Assembly (NCBI GenBank): GCA_031263195.1
Contig: JAISGD010000019.1
Coordinates: 1-64,000, forward strand
Direction: 5' to 3'
Origin: Campylobacteraceae bacterium
GTDB lineage: Bacteria; Campylobacterota; Campylobacteria; Campylobacterales; Campylobacteraceae
Length of the DNA stretch: 64,000 nt
In this document: piece by piece, positions 55,542 to 64,000 of the stretch
Layout: every line of letters begins with the position of its first letter
Numbering within the stretch: the stretch's first letter is position 1
Made by a program: the position numbers and the translations under genes
Notes under the pieces: generated by a model
What the model was told of the DNA's origin: nothing
Database searches by the model: none
What the model saw: only the letters and a program-made list of their open reading frames with translations

Positions 55542-56681
55542 TTGAAGATACTAATCATTTTTGGAACAAGACCCGAGGCTATAAAACTGGCGCCGCTGAT
55601 TATAGCTATGAAAAAGCATAAAATTGAACACAGAATTTGCGCTTCTGCACAGCATAGAGGTATGTTAGACCAAGTTTTAAATACGTTCAATATATCCGCA
55701 GACTATGATCTTGATATCATGAGACCTCATCAGACTCTATCCGATATAACATCGTCTATTTTGGTAAAAATAACTCATGTTTTGGATGAATATAAACCCG
55801 ACATTCTATTTGTCCATGGCGATACTACTACGACATTTGCTGCAAGTCTGGCCGCTTTTTATCACAAAATAGATATCGCGCATGTGGAAGCAGGACTTCG
55901 TACCGGAGATATGTATTCGCCTTATCCTGAGGAAGCGAACAGGAAACTGACTGCCGTTTTGACGAAATACCATTTTGCGCCCACACATCATGCGAGAAAA
56001 AATTTATTAAACGAGATGATTTCTGACGATTTTATATTTGTGACCGGAAATACGGTCATAGATGCTCTTTTATTAGTTAAAGATAAGATAAACAGGACTG
56101 TAAACTTAAAAAAATCATTAGAAGAGAGATTTAGTTTTTTGCGTTTGGACGCAAAAATGGTATTGATTACCGGACATCGCCGTGAAAACTTCGGCAATGG
56201 ATTTGACAATATCTGTTCGGCTATAAAAATGCTTGCCGAAAAATTTACAAATGTGGACTTTGTATATCCCGTGCATCTCAATCCGAATGTAAGAGAACCT
56301 GTAAGGCGATATCTGAGCGGTTTGGATAATGTTCATTTGATAGAACCGCAAGAATATGTACCGTTTGTATACTTGATGATGCGTTCATATATCATCTTGA
56401 CAGATTCTGGCGGTATACAGGAAGAAGCTCCATCTTTAGGAAAACCCGTACTTGTCATGAGAAATACGACAGAGAGGGTTGAAGCTCTGGAAGCAGGAAC
56501 AGTAAGATTAGTCGGCACAAATATCAATGTTATCATTGACGAAACAACGAAGCTGCTTACAAATCGCGCTCTTTACGATGATATGGCAAAAGCTGTCAAT
56601 CCGTACGGAGACGGCAGAGCCTGTAAGCGAATTTTACAATTTATGCAAGAAAAACAATTAATCAAAAGGGGTATTTATTAA
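55542..56681 (+). CDS. wecB: UDP-N-acetylglucosamine 2-epimerase (non-hydrolysing)
   Basis: 379 residues, GT-B-like fold: IFGTRPEAIKLAPLI at the N terminus, HVEAGLRTGDMYSPYPEEANR, TGHRRENFG and DSGGIQEEAPSLGKPVLVMR with ERVEALEAGT. It interconverts UDP-GlcNAc and UDP-ManNAc. The only start near the conserved N terminus is TTG at 55542, and the ribosome site is poor, which hints at low or regulated translation. It overlaps the fused dehydrogenase/glycosyltransferase gene by one base, so the two steps to UDP-ManNAcA are coupled. Confidence 0.93.
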   Translation: MKILIIFGTRPEAIKLAPLIIAMKKHKIEHRICASAQHRGMLDQVLNTFNISADYDLDIMRPHQTLSDITSSILVKITHVLDEYKPDILFVHGDTTTTFAASLAAFYHKIDIAHVEAGLRTGDMYSPYPEEANRKLTAVLTKYHFAPTHHARKNLLNEMISDDFIFVTGNTVIDALLLVKDKINRTVNLKKSLEERFSFLRLDAKMVLITGHRRENFGNGFDNICSAIKMLAEKFTNVDFVYPVHLNPNVREPVRRYLSGLDNVHLIEPQEYVPFVYLMMRSYIILTDSGGIQEEAPSLGKPVLVMRNTTERVEALEAGTVRLVGTNINVIIDETTKLLTNRALYDDMAKAVNPYGDGRACKRILQFMQEKQLIKRGIY

Positions 56682-59600
56682 TGTCGGATAAAACAGTATC
56701 GATCATAGGTTTGGGATATATAGGTCTTCCAACAGCCGCTATGTTTGCGGCTAGCGGTATAAAGGTTGTGGGCGTTGATGTCAACAGTTACGCGGTTGAT
56801 ACTATCAACCAAGGCAAAATACACATTGTAGAGCCCGAACTTGACAAACTTGTAAGCGATGTTGTAGCAAACGGATATTTAAGGGCGGTTACAAAGTCTA
56901 TAGCGGCAGATGTTTTTATAATTGCCGTGCCTACTCCGTTTAAAGGTAGACATAAACCCGATATCTCATATATAGAATCTGCCGCAGAAGCTATCGCCCC
57001 TGTGATCAAAAAAGGCGATTTGGTGATTTTGGAGTCCACATCTCCCGTAGGCACAACCGAACAGATGGCAGAGTGGCTCTCGTACGCACGTCCTGATCTT
57101 ACCTTTCCTCAAACTCACGGAGAAGATTCGGATATAAGAATAGCGCATTGTCCGGAGAGGGTTTTACCTGGACGCATACTAAAAGAACTTGAGGAAAACG
57201 ACAGAATCATCGGCGGTATAACTCCAAAATGCTCATATGAAGCCGCTAAGCTTTATAAGACTTTTGTTAAAGGCGAATGTATCATCACAAATGCCAAAAC
57301 AGCGGAAATGTGCAAACTGACAGAAAATAGTTTTAGAGACGTAAATATCGCATTTGCCAATGAGCTATCCGTCATATGTGACAAACTAGGCATCAATGTA
57401 TGGGAGCTTATATCTTTGGCAAACCGTCATCCAAGAGTCAATATTTTACAACCCGGCTGCGGAGTAGGCGGACACTGCATAGCGGTTGATCCATGGTTTA
57501 TAGTCAGTAAAAGTCCAAAAGAGGCAAAGTTAATACGCATGGCAAGAGAGGTAAATAACTATAAAAGAGAGTGGGTTGTTGGTAAAATCGACGAGGCTGT
57601 ATCGATATTTTTAGCAAAAAATCCGACAAAAAACAAAGATAATATCAAAATAGCTTGTTTCGGGCTTGCTTTTAAGCCAGATATTGATGATTTGAGAGAG
57701 AGTCCGGCTGTGGAGATTGTTAAAGAAATCGCTGATCAATATAAAAATATATTAGTTGTTGAGCCGAATATCAAAGAGTTGCCGCGCAAACTTAAGTTAG
57801 AAAATATTCGTTTATGTACATTTGATTATGCACTTGACAATAGCGATATTGTATTGTTGCTTGTTGAACACAAAGAGTTTAAGGAAGTGCAGCCTAAAAT
57901 ACATCCAGATCAATACATTGTGGATACAAAAGGTATTTGGGATTCGAGCAAATTTGTAAAAGCATTGTCTGAAAAACAGCGATTAAACTATGCTGAAGAG
58001 CTTAGAATATCACAGGTGCAAAAAATAGAGATTGAAAAGCAAGAGCAAGATAAAGAGATTTATTATGAGGGGGTATTTAGTGAATATCAATCCAAAGTTG
58101 AAGATTTAACAAATCGACTTACAGAGCATCAGAGAAATTTAAAGATATTTGAAATAAGCGAAAAAACCTTAAAGGAACAGCTAAAATATCAGCAAATTGC
58201 ATTAGAAAAAGAGGAAAAACAACATAGAGATACAATATTAAAAAGAACGAATGAAACAGAGGCGATAAGATCATCAGTTCCGTTTTTATTAGGAAAAGCT
58301 TTAATAGAGTCAAAGAAAAGTTTTAAAAATCTTATTTTATTTCCATTTATAATTTATAGTATCAGTAAACAAAGCAAGATACAAAATAAGAGTATCGCAA
58401 AAGTAAAAGAAAATATAACTGCATCAAATTGCAATAAAAGCTTGATTGAACATATAGATGTAATTTATGTTGAGCAAGGATTGGAAGCAGCAGAGTTTTT
58501 TATAGAGAATAAAATAAAAAGCAATCGTGATAAAGCATCGGCATTAGTGAGACTATCACGTCTAGTATTAAATATTAATACATATGAATCAGCACGTATT
58601 GCCCGTAAAAGTGTAGAGTTAGACCCGCGCATTTTTCGCATAAAATGGCTTGCTTTTTTGCTGTTTGATACAGGTTCGATAATCGAATCAAGTGCAATGC
58701 TTGATTCCTTACCGGAAACAATAGTTATGAATGAAGCGGAGAAAAATAAAGCAAAATACATTAAGGGTTGTTGCGCGATCTTTCAAAAACCTCCGAAGAT
58801 TTTACACGCAAAGATTTCCACTATAAAATCTATCGATAAGAAAATACTTTATGTAGCTTCAAGTTCATTGCCTCATCAAACGACAGGTTATACCACTAGA
58901 ACACATGCTATTCTCAAAGGTATTTGTGCAAACGGATGGGATGTAACTTGTACAACAAGACCCGGATACCCTTTTGACAGAAATGATTTGAGCGTTAAGT
59001 ATTCAGATGGAGTATATGAATTGGATGGCATAATTTATGAGTTCCTGAAAGGCAAAGGAAGAAGAGAGACTCCACTTGATGAATATATATACGAATCTGC
59101 TGAAATTCTCAAAAAAGAGATGATCCAAAAATGTCCATCTATTGTGCATGCTGCTTCTAATTACGAAGCAGGGCTTCCCGCATTGATTGCAGCAAAAGAG
59201 CTTGGAATTCCTTTTATTTATGAAGTACGCGGTTTTTGGGAATATACCAGCGCTTCAAAAATCGAAGAGTGGGAAAAAACAGAGAGATTCGCGCTTGATT
59301 ATCAACTTGAAGCACTTGTTGCACAAAATGCTGATTTGGTTATAACGCTCAACATGGCAATGGCAGATGAGCTTGTTTTGCGCGGCGTTAGAAGAGAAAA
59401 AATAGTTTTTGCTCCGAATGCTTTAGATATTGAAAAATTTTATCCTGTAACTAAAAGCAACATTCTTGCAGAAAAATTGGGGTTAAAAGATGATGATTTT
59501 GTTATCGGCTATATCGGTTCTATAGTCAATTATGAAGGCTTGGATACTCTAATAGAAGCTTTTTGTAAAGTTTGTCAAAAGATCCAAAATGCCAAGCTTT

Positions 59601-60061
59601 TAATCGTTGGCAATGGAAAAATTTTATCTGGATTGGAAAAACTTGCTGCTTCTTTTAATGTAAGCGATAAAGTTTCATTTACAGGAGCCGTTGCACATAA
59701 AGATGTACAACAATATTTTAGCTTGATTAATGCTATAACTATTCCGAGAAAACCTCATAAAGTTTGCCAGCTTGTTTCGCCGTTAAAGCCACTTGAAGCT
59801 ATGGGTATGGAGATTCCGCTCATTGTCTCAGACGTATCTGCTTTAAAAGAGATGGTTAAAGACGAACAAACCGGACTTATCCATAAAACAGATGATCCTG
59901 ATTCTCTTGCAGAAGCTATTTTACGATTAGCTCAAAATCCTGCATTAAGAGAACAGCTTGCAAAAAATGCAAAAGAAGAAGTTATCACCAATAAAACATG
60001 GAACAAAGTTACAAAAGATATATCAAGGCATTATGAAACGCTTATAAAAAGTAGAGGATAA
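56681..60061 (+). CDS. Fused UDP-ManNAc dehydrogenase (WecC-like), coiled-coil linker and family-4 glycosyltransferase
   Basis: 1126 residues in one uninterrupted frame. Residues 1-430: nucleotide-sugar 6-dehydrogenase with IIGLGYIGLPTAAMFA, VPTPFKGRHKPD, ESTSPVGTTEQ, catalytic Cys260 in QPGCGVGGHC and KPDIDDLRESPA. Residues about 432-525: charged coiled coil. 549-562: a hydrophobic stretch. About 590-700: helical, TPR-like. About 720-1126: GT-B glycosyltransferase family 4 with YEVRGFWEY, FAPNALDIEKFYP, VIGYIGSIVNYEGLDTLIEA and PLKPLEAMGMEIPLIVS. It would oxidise UDP-ManNAc to UDP-ManNAcA and then transfer a sugar; channelling is my inference. WecC is normally a separate protein of about 420 residues. 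Confidence 0.88.
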   Translation: MSDKTVSIIGLGYIGLPTAAMFAASGIKVVGVDVNSYAVDTINQGKIHIVEPELDKLVSDVVANGYLRAVTKSIAADVFIIAVPTPFKGRHKPDISYIESAAEAIAPVIKKGDLVILESTSPVGTTEQMAEWLSYARPDLTFPQTHGEDSDIRIAHCPERVLPGRILKELEENDRIIGGITPKCSYEAAKLYKTFVKGECIITNAKTAEMCKLTENSFRDVNIAFANELSVICDKLGINVWELISLANRHPRVNILQPGCGVGGHCIAVDPWFIVSKSPKEAKLIRMAREVNNYKREWVVGKIDEAVSIFLAKNPTKNKDNIKIACFGLAFKPDIDDLRESPAVEIVKEIADQYKNILVVEPNIKELPRKLKLENIRLCTFDYALDNSDIVLLLVEHKEFKEVQPKIHPDQYIVDTKGIWDSSKFVKALSEKQRLNYAEELRISQVQKIEIEKQEQDKEIYYEGVFSEYQSKVEDLTNRLTEHQRNLKIFEISEKTLKEQLKYQQIALEKEEKQHRDTILKRTNETEAIRSSVPFLLGKALIESKKSFKNLILFPFIIYSISKQSKIQNKSIAKVKENITASNCNKSLIEHIDVIYVEQGLEAAEFFIENKIKSNRDKASALVRLSRLVLNINTYESARIARKSVELDPRIFRIKWLAFLLFDTGSIIESSAMLDSLPETIVMNEAEKNKAKYIKGCCAIFQKPPKILHAKISTIKSIDKKILYVASSSLPHQTTGYTTRTHAILKGICANGWDVTCTTRPGYPFDRNDLSVKYSDGVYELDGIIYEFLKGKGRRETPLDEYIYESAEILKKEMIQKCPSIVHAASNYEAGLPALIAAKELGIPFIYEVRGFWEYTSASKIEEWEKTERFALDYQLEALVAQNADLVITLNMAMADELVLRGVRREKIVFAPNALDIEKFYPVTKSNILAEKLGLKDDDFVIGYIGSIVNYEGLDTLIEAFCKVCQKIQNAKLLIVGNGKILSGLEKLAASFNVSDKVSFTGAVAHKDVQQYFSLINAITIPRKPHKVCQLVSPLKPLEAMGMEIPLIVSDVSALKEMVKDEQTGLIHKTDDPDSLAEAILRLAQNPALREQLAKNAKEEVITNKTWNKVTKDISRHYETLIKSRG

Positions 60062-60068
60062 AGAGTAG

Positions 60069-60143
60069 ATGAGCAAAAAACACTTACTTTTATCGCGTTT
60101 TGATTTTAAATTTATAGTTGACAAAAGAAAAGATGGTAGATAG
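60069..60143 (+). CDS. Possible 24-residue leader peptide or gene remnant
   Basis: An ATG 7 bp after the preceding stop, with an AGAGGATAAAGAG purine-rich ribosome site, opens a 24-codon frame (MSKKHLLLSRFDFKFIVDK and four more codons) that ends at 60141-60143, 11 bp inside the next gene in another frame. Its start (K-H-L-L-L-S-R-F) resembles the N terminus of some glycosyltransferases. It may be a translated leader that couples to the next gene, or the remnant of a deleted gene. Confidence 0.35.
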   Translation: MSKKHLLLSRFDFKFIVDKRKDGR

Positions 60144-62772
60144 TACATTGCGTGATAATCTTGATTTCATCGAACACATGCATATAAAAGATGATTCCCA
60201 TAATTTCGTTATAAATCCTATAGCATTTGGCAGATATGAGTTTGAATTTAAACTAAGCAGTGATGATAAGGAATATTTGGAAGGTGCTATAGCTTCTTTT
60301 GAATTTAATAAAGAGTCCGAGTTGCTTGAGGGATTGTTCAAATCTCAAGTGAAAAATATGGGTTACTTTCGTTATCTACAAACTTCAAGAGATGGAGCGA
60401 TAACAAAATTTATTATAGATATACCGCAAGATGTGGAGCTGAATAAAATAAAGATTATTCCATGGAGTGCAAAAACAATCCCTATATTCTTAGACGACAT
60501 AAAAGTAACAAAACAGCATGATAAGATAACGCTTTCTGTGTCAGCAGATGATACTAAGATATATGCCTCCATAGCTCCTTTTCAAGATGAAAATTATGCC
60601 TTTTATGTGATACGTAACGATGAAGTTATTTATCGTCAAACATATACGTCCCAAAACAGTTTTGAATTTATGCACGATAAAATCTTAGGTAGACATCGCG
60701 TCAAAGGATATGCCCGCTCAAAAAATGGGCTTACAGGCAGAGGGCTTTCACAGGATATGTTTGTTTTTGGACAAGAGCGTCCACTGGAAAATATCTCAAA
60801 AGATAAATTGAGAGATACATATTTGCTTATAAAATCCGGCAATTACAGTTTTCATTGTTTATATTTTGAAGGTAAAGTAAATAATCTTTTTGTCTTATTA
60901 AGTGGAGCTATAGATAGAAACAAGAGAAAACCACCGTATTTTACAAGATGGAAATGGAGAGATAAATTTCCGGGTCACATTATTTGCATATCCGACCCTA
61001 CGCTTTTACTTAACGAAACCATAGAACTTGGTTGGTATATCGGCTCTGAAAAGTATAATGCTACGGACGATATGGCGAAGTTAGTCAAACATATCGCAAA
61101 GATACTTGGAGTTCCGAATGAACGTATAATCTCCTATGGCTCATCTGGCGGCGGTTTTGGAGCTTTAATGCTTGCAAGCAAGATAGATGGTTCATTGGCT
61201 GTTGCTATAAATCCGCAAACTAATGTTCTTAGCCATTATCAAAGAGTTGAAAAAATGGTTGATGTATGTTTCTCCGGTAGAGATCAAGAGTTTATAGAAA
61301 AAAACTATAATGATAGAATATGCGTGCAAAAAGCTTTGAAAAACTCAAACTCTCGTGTTTTTATAATACAAAACACTCTTGATGAATTTCATTGGAAAAA
61401 CCACTATCCTCCGTTTGCAAAAGAGATGGAACTGCCTTTGGTTTCCGGCATTTCTAAAAATGGCAAACATAAAGCCATCATATATAATGACCCAAAAGGA
61501 CATGGTGAAGAATCATCGGAAATATTCGCAGAGATTATACGCAATATAGATGAAATATTAAACAATGATACTATAAAGATATTTTCTTCTCAAAGTAAGA
61601 AAGCTATAAATACATACATAGAATTTGATGAAAAGATATATAATCTGACTTTTGAGTTAATCGAGATGGAAAATAAAAAGAGTATGTATTTTATGCAGGA
61701 TTGTATATTTGAAGATGGTACAAGAGAAATAATTGCGTTAAATTATAATCGAACAGCAATATACTCATCTTTTGATGTGGGTTTAACATGGCAGCTCAGA
61801 TATATATCAGTGAAATGGCTTGGTAGGATAATAACAGTATTTACTACTTCTTTTCAAGAAAAGTTGGTATGGGTTGAGGGTGGTTATTTGTATCACTTTG
61901 ATGGTAATGAGCAACTGATGGCTTTACACAATGACAGACAATATCCTTGGCATGGTTCTCAAGGTATAGGAGAATCAGAAAATGGTGTTATTATGTATGC
62001 TGAGTATTGTTCAAAACACCATGAAAATGAAATTATACCGCTTAACGTTTGGAGATATAGATTTGATACAAAGGAGTGGAAAAAGATATTTACATTACAA
62101 ACGACTATGCAGCCAAACAAAGAGATATTTAGCGATATACGCCATTTTCACATATGCAGACCAAATCCTTTAAATAAAAATCAATGGATATTAAGTACAG
62201 GTGATAAAGACACACATTGTCGTATGTGGATAAGCAGTGACGAGGGTGACAATTGGCAGGAGCTAACAAACTTTAAGCCTGCTCCAAAATCACCATATAC
62301 TAACAGCAATTCTGTTTTTAGATTTGTACAATATGCTGTTACAATAAATGGAGATTTAATATGGGGTACAGATGATACAAACCTCTCAACTACTCGTCAA
62401 TCAGCGATTATAAAAATGAGTATTAAAGAAGATAGAAAACAATCTGAAATTTTAACATGGCTTGGGGATAATTGTATACGAAATATTATCTCTTGCGGTA
62501 ATGACATCTTTTTGCTATTATCGGAGGCAAAAACTACCATATATTATGCAGATTGTTTTTTGTATCATTTAAGAACAAACAAATTAGTACATATTCCCTT
62601 GCCTATGCTAAACAATAAAACGACAAAGTCTGGTTTTACATATTCTTTTGGTTCTACAATGATGGTCAACAATGCCGCTTTTGTGTATACAAGCTATATT
62701 TTGACAAAAGAAAATCGCGGAATAATCAAAATATCATTTAATGAAATAGAGCAAAATGATAAGAGAATATGA
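60133..62772 (+). CDS. Alpha/beta-hydrolase domain fused to an Asp-box (BNR) beta-propeller
   Basis: 879 residues from the ATG at 60133 (a TTG at 60118 is an alternative). Residues about 1-225: beta-rich N-terminal region. About 230-475: alpha/beta-hydrolase-like domain with a nucleophile elbow SYGSSGGGFGAL (G-x-S-x-G, Ser338), PKGHGEE (His457) and candidate acid Asp417. About 495-879: repeats with two Asp boxes, SFDVGLTW (546-553) and SSDEGDNW (701-708), the S/x-D-x-G-x-T/N-W mark of sialidase-like propellers. No signal peptide. The hydrolase half resembles proteins annotated in capsule loci of the XcbB/CpsF type. Role in glycan acyl modification or trimming is a guess; enzyme class unproved. 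Confidence 0.8.
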   Translation: MVDSTLRDNLDFIEHMHIKDDSHNFVINPIAFGRYEFEFKLSSDDKEYLEGAIASFEFNKESELLEGLFKSQVKNMGYFRYLQTSRDGAITKFIIDIPQDVELNKIKIIPWSAKTIPIFLDDIKVTKQHDKITLSVSADDTKIYASIAPFQDENYAFYVIRNDEVIYRQTYTSQNSFEFMHDKILGRHRVKGYARSKNGLTGRGLSQDMFVFGQERPLENISKDKLRDTYLLIKSGNYSFHCLYFEGKVNNLFVLLSGAIDRNKRKPPYFTRWKWRDKFPGHIICISDPTLLLNETIELGWYIGSEKYNATDDMAKLVKHIAKILGVPNERIISYGSSGGGFGALMLASKIDGSLAVAINPQTNVLSHYQRVEKMVDVCFSGRDQEFIEKNYNDRICVQKALKNSNSRVFIIQNTLDEFHWKNHYPPFAKEMELPLVSGISKNGKHKAIIYNDPKGHGEESSEIFAEIIRNIDEILNNDTIKIFSSQSKKAINTYIEFDEKIYNLTFELIEMENKKSMYFMQDCIFEDGTREIIALNYNRTAIYSSFDVGLTWQLRYISVKWLGRIITVFTTSFQEKLVWVEGGYLYHFDGNEQLMALHNDRQYPWHGSQGIGESENGVIMYAEYCSKHHENEIIPLNVWRYRFDTKEWKKIFTLQTTMQPNKEIFSDIRHFHICRPNPLNKNQWILSTGDKDTHCRMWISSDEGDNWQELTNFKPAPKSPYTNSNSVFRFVQYAVTINGDLIWGTDDTNLSTTRQSAIIKMSIKEDRKQSEILTWLGDNCIRNIISCGNDIFLLLSEAKTTIYYADCFLYHLRTNKLVHIPLPMLNNKTTKSGFTYSFGSTMMVNNAAFVYTSYILTKENRGIIKISFNEIEQNDKRI

Positions 62773-62979
62773 AAATATTACCAGTGTATCAATGACAAAA
62801 TTAGAGCAAGAGTTGAGTGCAGGATGGTCAATAGGAAAATATCCTACTATCAAACTTAATGAAAAAATTCCATGGGAGATGACTTCAGATATATAGGAGT
62901 TGGAAGTTTCACATTCAGTATAGAAAGAGTGCTGGATGACGGTATCATTTATAAAAAGCAAAGGACAGATATAAAATGA
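62756..62979 (+). pseudogene. Small gene broken by an apparent one-base frameshift
   Basis: Two frames join into one short protein. The first (ATG at 62756, overlapping the previous gene by 17 bp) reads MIREYENITSVSMTKL to NEKIPWE and stops at 62894-62896. The second reads DDFRYIGVGSFTFSIERVL to DIK and stops at 62977-62979, inside the next gene's ATG. One extra G in the GGG at 62873-62876 would rebuild P-W-G-D-D-F in one frame of about 74 codons. The second part is well conserved in character (aromatic, charged). Family unknown. Confidence 0.6.
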
Positions 62980-64000
62980 GATTTGTTTGGAAAGAGAAAA
63001 AAGGTACATCAAAATATCGTTTGACTTTTAGAGATGCTAAAACCAATGATATAATTTCCTTAAAAGAGGTTATAGGGCAAGTAGAGTTTAATATACCTGA
63101 AGAGTTAAATCAATACGGTGATGATCTATTACTTAGGGTTGAATATTTTGAAGACAGTATCAAAAAATATATAGTTTGGTTTCCGTATTTTCATCCATTT
63201 TATGGTATTCAAAAAACAAAATTAAAAATAAAATCTTCTATTGACAATGATGGATTTCCGTTGCGCTTAATACTCAAAGATATCAATAATAATACTTTAT
63301 TGGATTATGTCTATCTTGGCGAAACATTTTATGTACCCGATAATTTGATTGCTTTGGAGAGAAATACTAAGTATAGATTTCTTAAGTTTGACCATAAGAC
63401 AAAAAAATGGAATTGGGATGTAGATAATGGAGGATACAAATATCTGTTTTTATCACATTTAAGCCTCAAATCTACAAAACCTTTAGAGGGTAAATTTGTG
63501 ATTGCTGAAAGAAGAGATGGTTTAGGTGCTAGATTAACTGCCGTTTTTAATGCCATATTGATATCGGAAGTAACAGGTATATCGTTTTATGTTTATTGGT
63601 CAAAAAGTGGTATCGGAAAAGAATTTCACTCTGTTGAATCTGTCGATAGCATTTTTTCGAAAGAGTTTATAAAAAATCATCTGCTTGGAGAAAAAGTGTC
63701 TGAAAAATTCAGGCTTATACCATATTGTCGAGAAAATATAAAAAATATAAAAGATTTTTGGATAGAGTCTATAAATCAAGATAATTGCATAGCTGGACAT
63801 GGCTATTTACTGGATATGCCTCGTATGTCTGGTGAAGAAAAACATATGTGGACAAAAAGAGTTTTAAATAAACTTGATTTTTCGGAAGAGATAAAACTTG
63901 CCATAAAAGAAGCTTATAATATTCCTTTACCAAGAAGTGTTGTAGCCATACATATAAGATCTGGAGATGTAGTTTATGGAAAATATGAAACACGCATAAC
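62976..64000 (+). CDS. Fucosyltransferase-like protein with HIRSGD motif (partial, runs off the window)
   Basis: An open frame from the ATG at 62976 (overlapping the previous stop, ATGA) to the window end: 341 codons without a stop. Residues 1-about 110 look like a fibronectin-III-type domain (FVWKEKKGTSKYRLTF, LLLRVEYF). Then FVIAERRDGLGARLTAVFNA (about 177-195), the donor-site block of HxRxGD-type fucosyltransferases, and AIHIRSGDVVYG (HIRSGD at 326-331), the GDP-fucose-binding motif of the GT11/GT23/GT65 superfamily. It is probably a glycosyltransferase with an added N-terminal domain; the donor could be GDP-fucose. The C terminus is outside the window. Confidence 0.75.
   Translation, partial: MRFVWKEKKGTSKYRLTFRDAKTNDIISLKEVIGQVEFNIPEELNQYGDDLLLRVEYFEDSIKKYIVWFPYFHPFYGIQKTKLKIKSSIDNDGFPLRLILKDINNNTLLDYVYLGETFYVPDNLIALERNTKYRFLKFDHKTKKWNWDVDNGGYKYLFLSHLSLKSTKPLEGKFVIAERRDGLGARLTAVFNAILISEVTGISFYVYWSKSGIGKEFHSVESVDSIFSKEFIKNHLLGEKVSEKFRLIPYCRENIKNIKDFWIESINQDNCIAGHGYLLDMPRMSGEEKHMWTKRVLNKLDFSEEIKLAIKEAYNIPLPRSVVAIHIRSGDVVYGKYETRI

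Follow-up and report, generated by a model that had tools for sequence, protein, structure and literature searches.

Gene organization of the locus

The window, a stretch of 64,000 nucleotides from a Campylobacteraceae bacterium, contains close to its end a gene (60118-62772, forward strand, as for all features below) whose product is divided into an N-terminal beta region, a domain resembling the capsule O-acetyltransferase CsaC, and a C-terminal region with Asp boxes. The gene is a real and intact reading frame, running without interruption from a TTG at 60118 through an ATG at 60133 to the stop codon at 62770-62772. The protein comprises 884 amino acids when counted from the TTG and 879 when counted from the alternative ATG, and which of the two is the start codon is uncertain. 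Residue numbers given here count from the TTG and are thus higher by 5 than those of the earlier note, which counted from the ATG, so that its Ser338, Asp417, and His457 correspond to Ser343, Asp422, and His462. A further ATG at 60069 opens a 24-codon frame in another phase, which stops at 60143 and overlaps the 5′ end of the gene. The best-looking ribosome site lies upstream of this ATG and is better than those of the TTG and the ATG at 60133. The short frame is possibly a lost or shifted 5′ start of the gene. No signal peptide or membrane segment was seen, with the top 19-residue hydrophobic mean reaching 0.33 in the first 60 residues, which upholds the placement of the protein on the cytoplasmic side in the earlier note. 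The N-terminal region (aa 1-224; 60118-60789) is predicted to be mostly beta at low model confidence, and at most weakly resembles, in colinear fashion, the N-terminal domain found in Burkholderia relatives (E 0.053 and 1% probability in hhalign).

Upstream of the gene lies wecB (55542-56681), encoding a non-hydrolysing UDP-GlcNAc 2-epimerase that makes UDP-ManNAc (TIGR00236, 508.6 bits against a cut-off of 210). It is followed by a gene of 1126 codons (56681-60061) in which wecC, for the UDP-ManNAc dehydrogenase that makes UDP-ManNAcA, is fused to a GT4 glycosyltransferase. NF008286 matches this protein with 707 bits over aa 1-420 and Glycos_transf_1 over aa 930-1099, the two parts being joined in one frame via a charged linker; relatives such as those in Malikia and Bordetella have wecC as a gene of its own. 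As judged by these profile matches, the two upstream genes are a route to UDP-ManNAcA. The next gene downstream (62976-64000, where it runs out of the window) encodes a 614-aa protein weakly similar to the fucosyltransferase NodZ. Past it on the contig are a heparinase II/III-like gene, a CgeB-type glycosyltransferase gene, and then gltD/gltB-like genes. The glycan locus proposed in the earlier note can therefore be specified as one for an acidic surface glycan, given wecB, the wecC-GT4 fusion, and the further glycosyltransferase genes.

Two observations concern the heparinase-like gene, which lies beyond the window (L004:12817-14655, contig C5), near the putative acetyltransferase gene. Its product has no signal peptide, and dermatan-sulfate epimerase is related to heparinase II/III-like proteins. 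By this analogy, the cytoplasmic heparinase II/III-like protein may be a uronyl C5-epimerase instead of a lyase. In addition, the 5′ end of this gene recurs as a decayed copy at 62727-62917, directly behind the gene under study and overlapping its last codons. The copy has 81-83% identity to L004:12788-12992, a stretch that includes the tail of the preceding gene, and recombination between such copies may have brought in the NodZ-like gene.

The KpsC/KpsS (Capsule_synth) genes of the source genome are located on another contig, in a row resembling kpsM-T-E-D-C-S. This kps-type export cluster (L087, G000:C12:3523-11044) is separate from the presumed synthesis locus, and no polymer-specific genes were found inside it. 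It is reasonable to suppose that the polymer passed to this exporter comes from the window locus.

Catalytic domain and its family

The central domain (aa 225-482; 60790-61563) was modelled by AlphaFold2 from a 33-row alignment at a pLDDT mostly above 90, and has an alpha/beta-hydrolase fold of the CsaC/Asp2 type according to its model, Foldseek search, and profile matches. The serine alpha/beta-hydrolase read from the sequence in the earlier note is thereby borne out by the structure prediction recommended there as a check. When the model was compared with PDB chains by Foldseek, the best match was CsaC (6yus; E 4e-8, TM 0.70 by target length), followed by 6oyc (E 4.5e-8), the Streptococcus agalactiae Gap123 complex with its Asp2 homologue. 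DPP4-type structures rank third and lower, with a TM of about 0.26. For CsaC of Neisseria meningitidis A, also named SacC, activity as a capsule O-acetyltransferase has been proven (PMC7501274), and Asp2 has been reported to O-acetylate a glycan (PMC5578698). A domain profile built from 8 relatives also ranked SacC first among PDB sequences (E 2.8e-5) and Asp2 next (E 0.0028). The 33-row profile matched Asp2 (6lnw; E 0.0015) via common SDPxL and YxG motifs, with CsaC itself falling below threshold in that search. Curated libraries hardly recognize the domain: UPF0227 (YqiA-type, PF05728) scores just over its gathering score (23.1 bits against 21) in a partial match overlapping aa 311-425, while Peptidase_S9 (20.5 bits, Pfam cut-off 22.6) and XcbB_CpsF (NF033892; 30.1 bits over aa 313-419, cut-off 125) do not reach theirs.

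The predicted nucleophile, Ser343 (61144-61146), lies in the GSSGG motif (G341-S-S343-G-G), a nucleophile elbow of the GXSXG form, and is invariant in 42 sequences. Counting only relatives that align at the position concerned, Asp422 and His425, both in the DEFH motif (61381-61392), are conserved in 38 of 39 each, and His462 (61501-61503), the predicted catalytic base within GHG, in 35 of 36. Ser343, Asp422, and His462 occur in the canonical order, so the elbow and the Ser, Asp, and His named in the earlier note are supported. Gln367 (61216-61218) is conserved in 41 of 42 relatives. Ser343, Gln367, Asp422, His425, and His429 do not vary in the 33-row alignment. Because the patterns used to collect the loci were built around LGWYxG or SGGGF, conservation of those stretches is not independent; Gln367, Asp422, His425, and His462 fall outside them.

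In CsaC, the S114-H228-D198 active site is extended by Q138 and H201, and the Q138A exchange removes about 97% of the activity (PMC7501274). The spacing of these residues recurs here. Gln367 is located exactly 24 residues past Ser343, as Q138 is past S114, and His425 is three residues past Asp422, as H201 is past D198, with His462 as the equivalent of H228. Independently of residue counting, the profile alignment of the 8 relatives with PDB sequences places Gln138 of CsaC under the NPQ motif. In a control set of 16 YqiA-type esterases recovered by the family's profile, the position of Gln367 is occupied by Ala or Ser in every case. Conservation of Gln138 in uncharacterised proteins had also been remarked upon by the CsaC authors (PMC7501274).

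Relatives of the domain were found in several collections. A tblastn search of plasmids returned five, at 26-29% identity, two of which have wecB and wecC nearby in capsule loci of enterobacteria. Two Campylobacterota genomes added L002 and L003, and a three-row alignment fetched 41 domain loci from GTDB genomes. The family spans Campylobacterota, Pseudomonadota, and Actinomycetota. No relative of the full-length protein was found in the genome contig collection searched. The full protein also had no match in phages, and alignment-based scans of viral contigs were likewise empty; a phage origin of the gene is rejected. No true XcbB member scored above cut-off among 298 Campylobacterota genomes. 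A tree of 41 rows places the window protein in a group with Pseudomonadota (7 rows, support 99/98), apart from the other Campylobacterota rows, in a bootstrap that is not fully settled. This grouping suggests that the protein was acquired by horizontal transfer.

The relatives sit in capsule-type loci, often adjoining wecB and wecC as in the window. Among 52 loci holding the domain, counted with short flanks, the neighbors include wecC (25), CgeB-type glycosyltransferases (24), wecB (22), GT4 glycosyltransferases (19), KpsT-like ABC ATPases (14), DUF6270 (10), GSCFA (8), and heparinase-like genes (5). The locus of Bordetella genomosp. 7 runs from wecB and wecC through a glycosyltransferase gene, two copies of the domain, and a CgeB-type glycosyltransferase gene to an ABC exporter and kpsS-type genes.

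The domain also occurs alone, as proteins of about 260-340 aa, and in several fusions. It is joined to Hepar_II_III_C in Bordetella pseudohinzii (L069), to a glucuronyl C5-epimerase C-terminus in Ornithinimicrobium (L077), to DUF6270 in Pseudomonas and a Campylobacteraceae genome (L015, L049), and to asparagine-synthase-like domains on an E. coli plasmid (L006) and, by similarity, in Kocuria (L082). Several of these fusion partners belong to families that act on uronic-acid chains. The asparagine-synthase-like fusions sit in capsule loci (L006:5887-8232 and L082:5013-7814). The copy in L006 has neither the catalytic Asp nor the His, which suggests that its hydrolase-type domain is a pseudoenzyme half, and a tandem repeat of the domain in L043 has a degenerate first half.

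C-terminal Asp-box region

The C-terminal region (aa 485-884; 61570-62769) contains two strict Asp boxes, SFDVGLTW (aa 551-558; 61768-61791) and SSDEGDNW (aa 706-713; 62233-62256). When the region was shuffled 20,000 times, two boxes arose in none of the shuffles and one box in 0.6%, so the Asp boxes that the earlier note had seen in the C-terminal half hold up. The second box lies within a conserved HxH...P...WxxxTGDxDxH...SxDxG stretch. A search of 399 genomes of the order turned up a single relative of the region (E 2.4e-6, with 26% identity across 92 aa). This 631-aa protein begins like a lipoprotein and contains a bacterial surface Ig domain, and a second lipoprotein-like relative was found in a related genome. 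The region and these two relatives (L083 and L089) have HxH...P...WxxTGDxDxH...SxDxG in common. The Asp boxes together with the motif common to the three proteins make a propeller likely, and the region is probably an Asp-box beta-propeller.

Modelling and profile searches gave a fainter picture. In the full-length AlphaFold model the region consists mostly of strands at a pLDDT mostly below 50, and when predicted alone by single-sequence AlphaFold it reached a pLDDT of 36. Weak BNR, Kelch, and Sortilin profile matches fall in the region, and a profile search extended to E 10 returned no sialidase family. Profile searches of PDB yielded antibody chains (E at least 0.035) or weak xyloglucanase matches, both at chance level. 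No match to the region was found by tblastn in plasmids or in 152 other genomes of the source family, and no relative was found in viral contigs. A fusion of the hydrolase domain with an Asp-box region was found in no other locus examined.

Proposed function and comparison with known systems

The earlier note had proposed that the protein deacylates, acylates, or trims a nascent polysaccharide. Because CsaC is the best fold match and the domain possesses CsaC's additional Gln and His, O-acetylation is selected among these activities; trimming is unsupported, as no sialidase family was matched, only two Asp boxes are present, and both AlphaFold models gave low confidence for the presumed propeller. 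The protein is probably a cytoplasmic O-acetyltransferase that modifies a nascent capsule polysaccharide, itself probably containing ManNAcA. In the proposed mechanism, His462 and Asp422 would activate Ser343, which would then become acetylated from acetyl-CoA, the presumed donor. Gln367, positioned by His425, would hold the acetyl-serine such that it is removed by a hydroxyl of the acceptor sugar rather than by water, directing the reaction toward transfer. The two regions flanking the domain (N-terminal beta, C-terminal Asp-box) may hold the chain while the enzyme acts, or dock the enzyme to the synthesis/export complex. Export of the polymer would follow through the Kps-type transporter, whose genes lie on the other contig. 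A more elaborate version, which we put forward tentatively as a possibility, is that the Asp-box propeller grips the growing uronic-acid chain and thereby makes acetylation processive or sets its spacing. The protein would then be one case of a modular family that joins a CsaC-type acetyltransferase domain to varied glycan-modifying modules (heparinase II/III-like, glucuronyl C5-epimerase-like, asparagine-synthase-like, and DUF6270).

Acetylation is not expected throughout the wider superfamily. The XcbB_CpsF profile matches the domain weakly (30 of 125 bits), and the capsule of serogroup X is not known to be O-acetylated. Since meningococcal XcbB, a protein of unknown function, is included in NCBIfam XcbB_CpsF (PMC3647402), the superfamily appears not to be uniformly acetylating. 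In an alternative reading, suggested by XcbB and by the transport role of Asp2, the domain chiefly serves the structure or assembly of the capsule machinery, and catalysis would be of secondary importance or of a different kind. The transport function of Asp2 is separable (PMC5578698), CsxB (XcbB) and Cps1C have been tested as candidate transition transferases (PMC11666461), and degenerate copies of the domain exist, as described for L043 and L006. However, the catalytic positions are all intact in the window protein and nearly invariant among its relatives, making this reading quite unlikely. An esterase that uses the Ser-Asp-His triad to remove acetyl or other acyl groups from a nascent or imported glycan is also unlikely, though hydrolysis is the commonest activity of the alpha/beta-hydrolase fold, the UPF0227 profile passes its Pfam cut-off, and CsaC without an acceptor slowly hydrolyses acetyl-CoA (PMC7501274). 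The additions linked to transfer in CsaC, Gln367 and His425, are conserved in the family, and the Gln is absent from the YqiA-type controls. Moreover, a cytoplasmic de-O-acetylase in a synthesis locus would depend on another enzyme to add the acetyl groups, and no such acetyltransferase was recognized among the locus genes examined.

Two further readings turn on a possible propeller. Asp boxes are known from non-enzymatic propellers too, and it is very doubtful that the C-terminal region is a sialidase-type glycoside hydrolase that trims the polymer. The two boxes and the weak BNR, Kelch, and Sortilin matches could be taken in this sense, but two boxes are all that the region contains, neither a sialidase family nor a solved structure was found by sequence, and cleavage of the chain is more plausibly assigned to the locus's heparinase-like gene; the sialidase reading was rejected. 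A peptidase of the S9 type (DPP4 or acylaminoacyl peptidase) would likewise combine a propeller with an alpha/beta-hydrolase, and both the Peptidase_S9 profile and the DPP4 structures appeared in the searches. Nonetheless, this candidate is hardly credible and was rejected, as the profile score is under the Pfam cut-off, CsaC is far better covered as a target (TM 0.70 against about 0.26), the propeller precedes the hydrolase in S9 enzymes and would follow it here, and the gene is surrounded by glycan genes.

O-Acetyl groups on capsules often decide recognition by antibodies and phages, and few capsule acetyltransferases of the alpha/beta-hydrolase type have been studied so far. The CsaC authors asked whether the addition of a Gln to the Ser-His-Asp triad is a general route from esterase to transferase (PMC7501274). 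The domain family described here, recurrently found beside ManNAcA genes, offers many testable members for this question, and the window protein contributes a new fusion partner to it. The catalytic type itself is already known, with OatC as an example alongside CsaC; what is new is its combination with an Asp-box region.

Among known systems, the UPF0227/YqiA esterases overlap the domain in profile over aa 311-425, yet they are small, single-domain proteins without the Gln. By prediction, ORF5 of E. coli K15 is of the same catalytic type (PMC7387560). Along with XcbB/CpsF and App Cps1C, it resembles the window protein in carrying a domain of the superfamily in a capsule locus; the XcbB_CpsF profile score, however, is far under its cut-off, the functions are predicted at most, and K15 ORF5 and Cps1C were compared by papers only. 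L083 and L089, from another Campylobacterota family, have the motif of the C-terminal region in common with it, but possess lipoprotein-like N-termini and no hydrolase domain, and no capsule genes were among the few neighbors seen. Asp2/Gap2, the second fold match, is similar in its SDPxL and YxG motifs, its Ser-Asp-His triad, and its O-acetylation of a glycan, with a sequence match that stops short of the Gln367 position. In contrast to the window protein, it acts on serine-rich repeat glycoproteins with an accessory Sec system and has no Asp-box region, whereas the neighbors of the gene in the window are sugar-nucleotide and glycosyltransferase genes rather than an operon for accessory Sec and a serine-rich repeat adhesin.

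CsaC (SacC/MynC; PDB 6yuo, 6yuq, 6yus, and 6yuv) has in common with the window protein the alpha/beta-hydrolase fold, the Ser-His-Asp triad, the Gln at Ser+24, the His at Asp+3, and a capsule locus with a UDP-GlcNAc 2-epimerase. It differs as a stand-alone enzyme of about 250 aa acting on a ManNAc-1-phosphate polymer, while the window protein, about 15% identical to it in the fold alignment, has extra N- and C-terminal regions and wecC, for ManNAcA, in its locus. The acceptor is positioned in CsaC by Arg148 (PMC7501274), which lies at Ser+34. The window protein has Arg376 at Ser+33, a residue kept in 7 of 42 relatives. As Arg148 thus has no conserved counterpart in the family, the acceptor, or its site, is expected to differ from that of CsaC.
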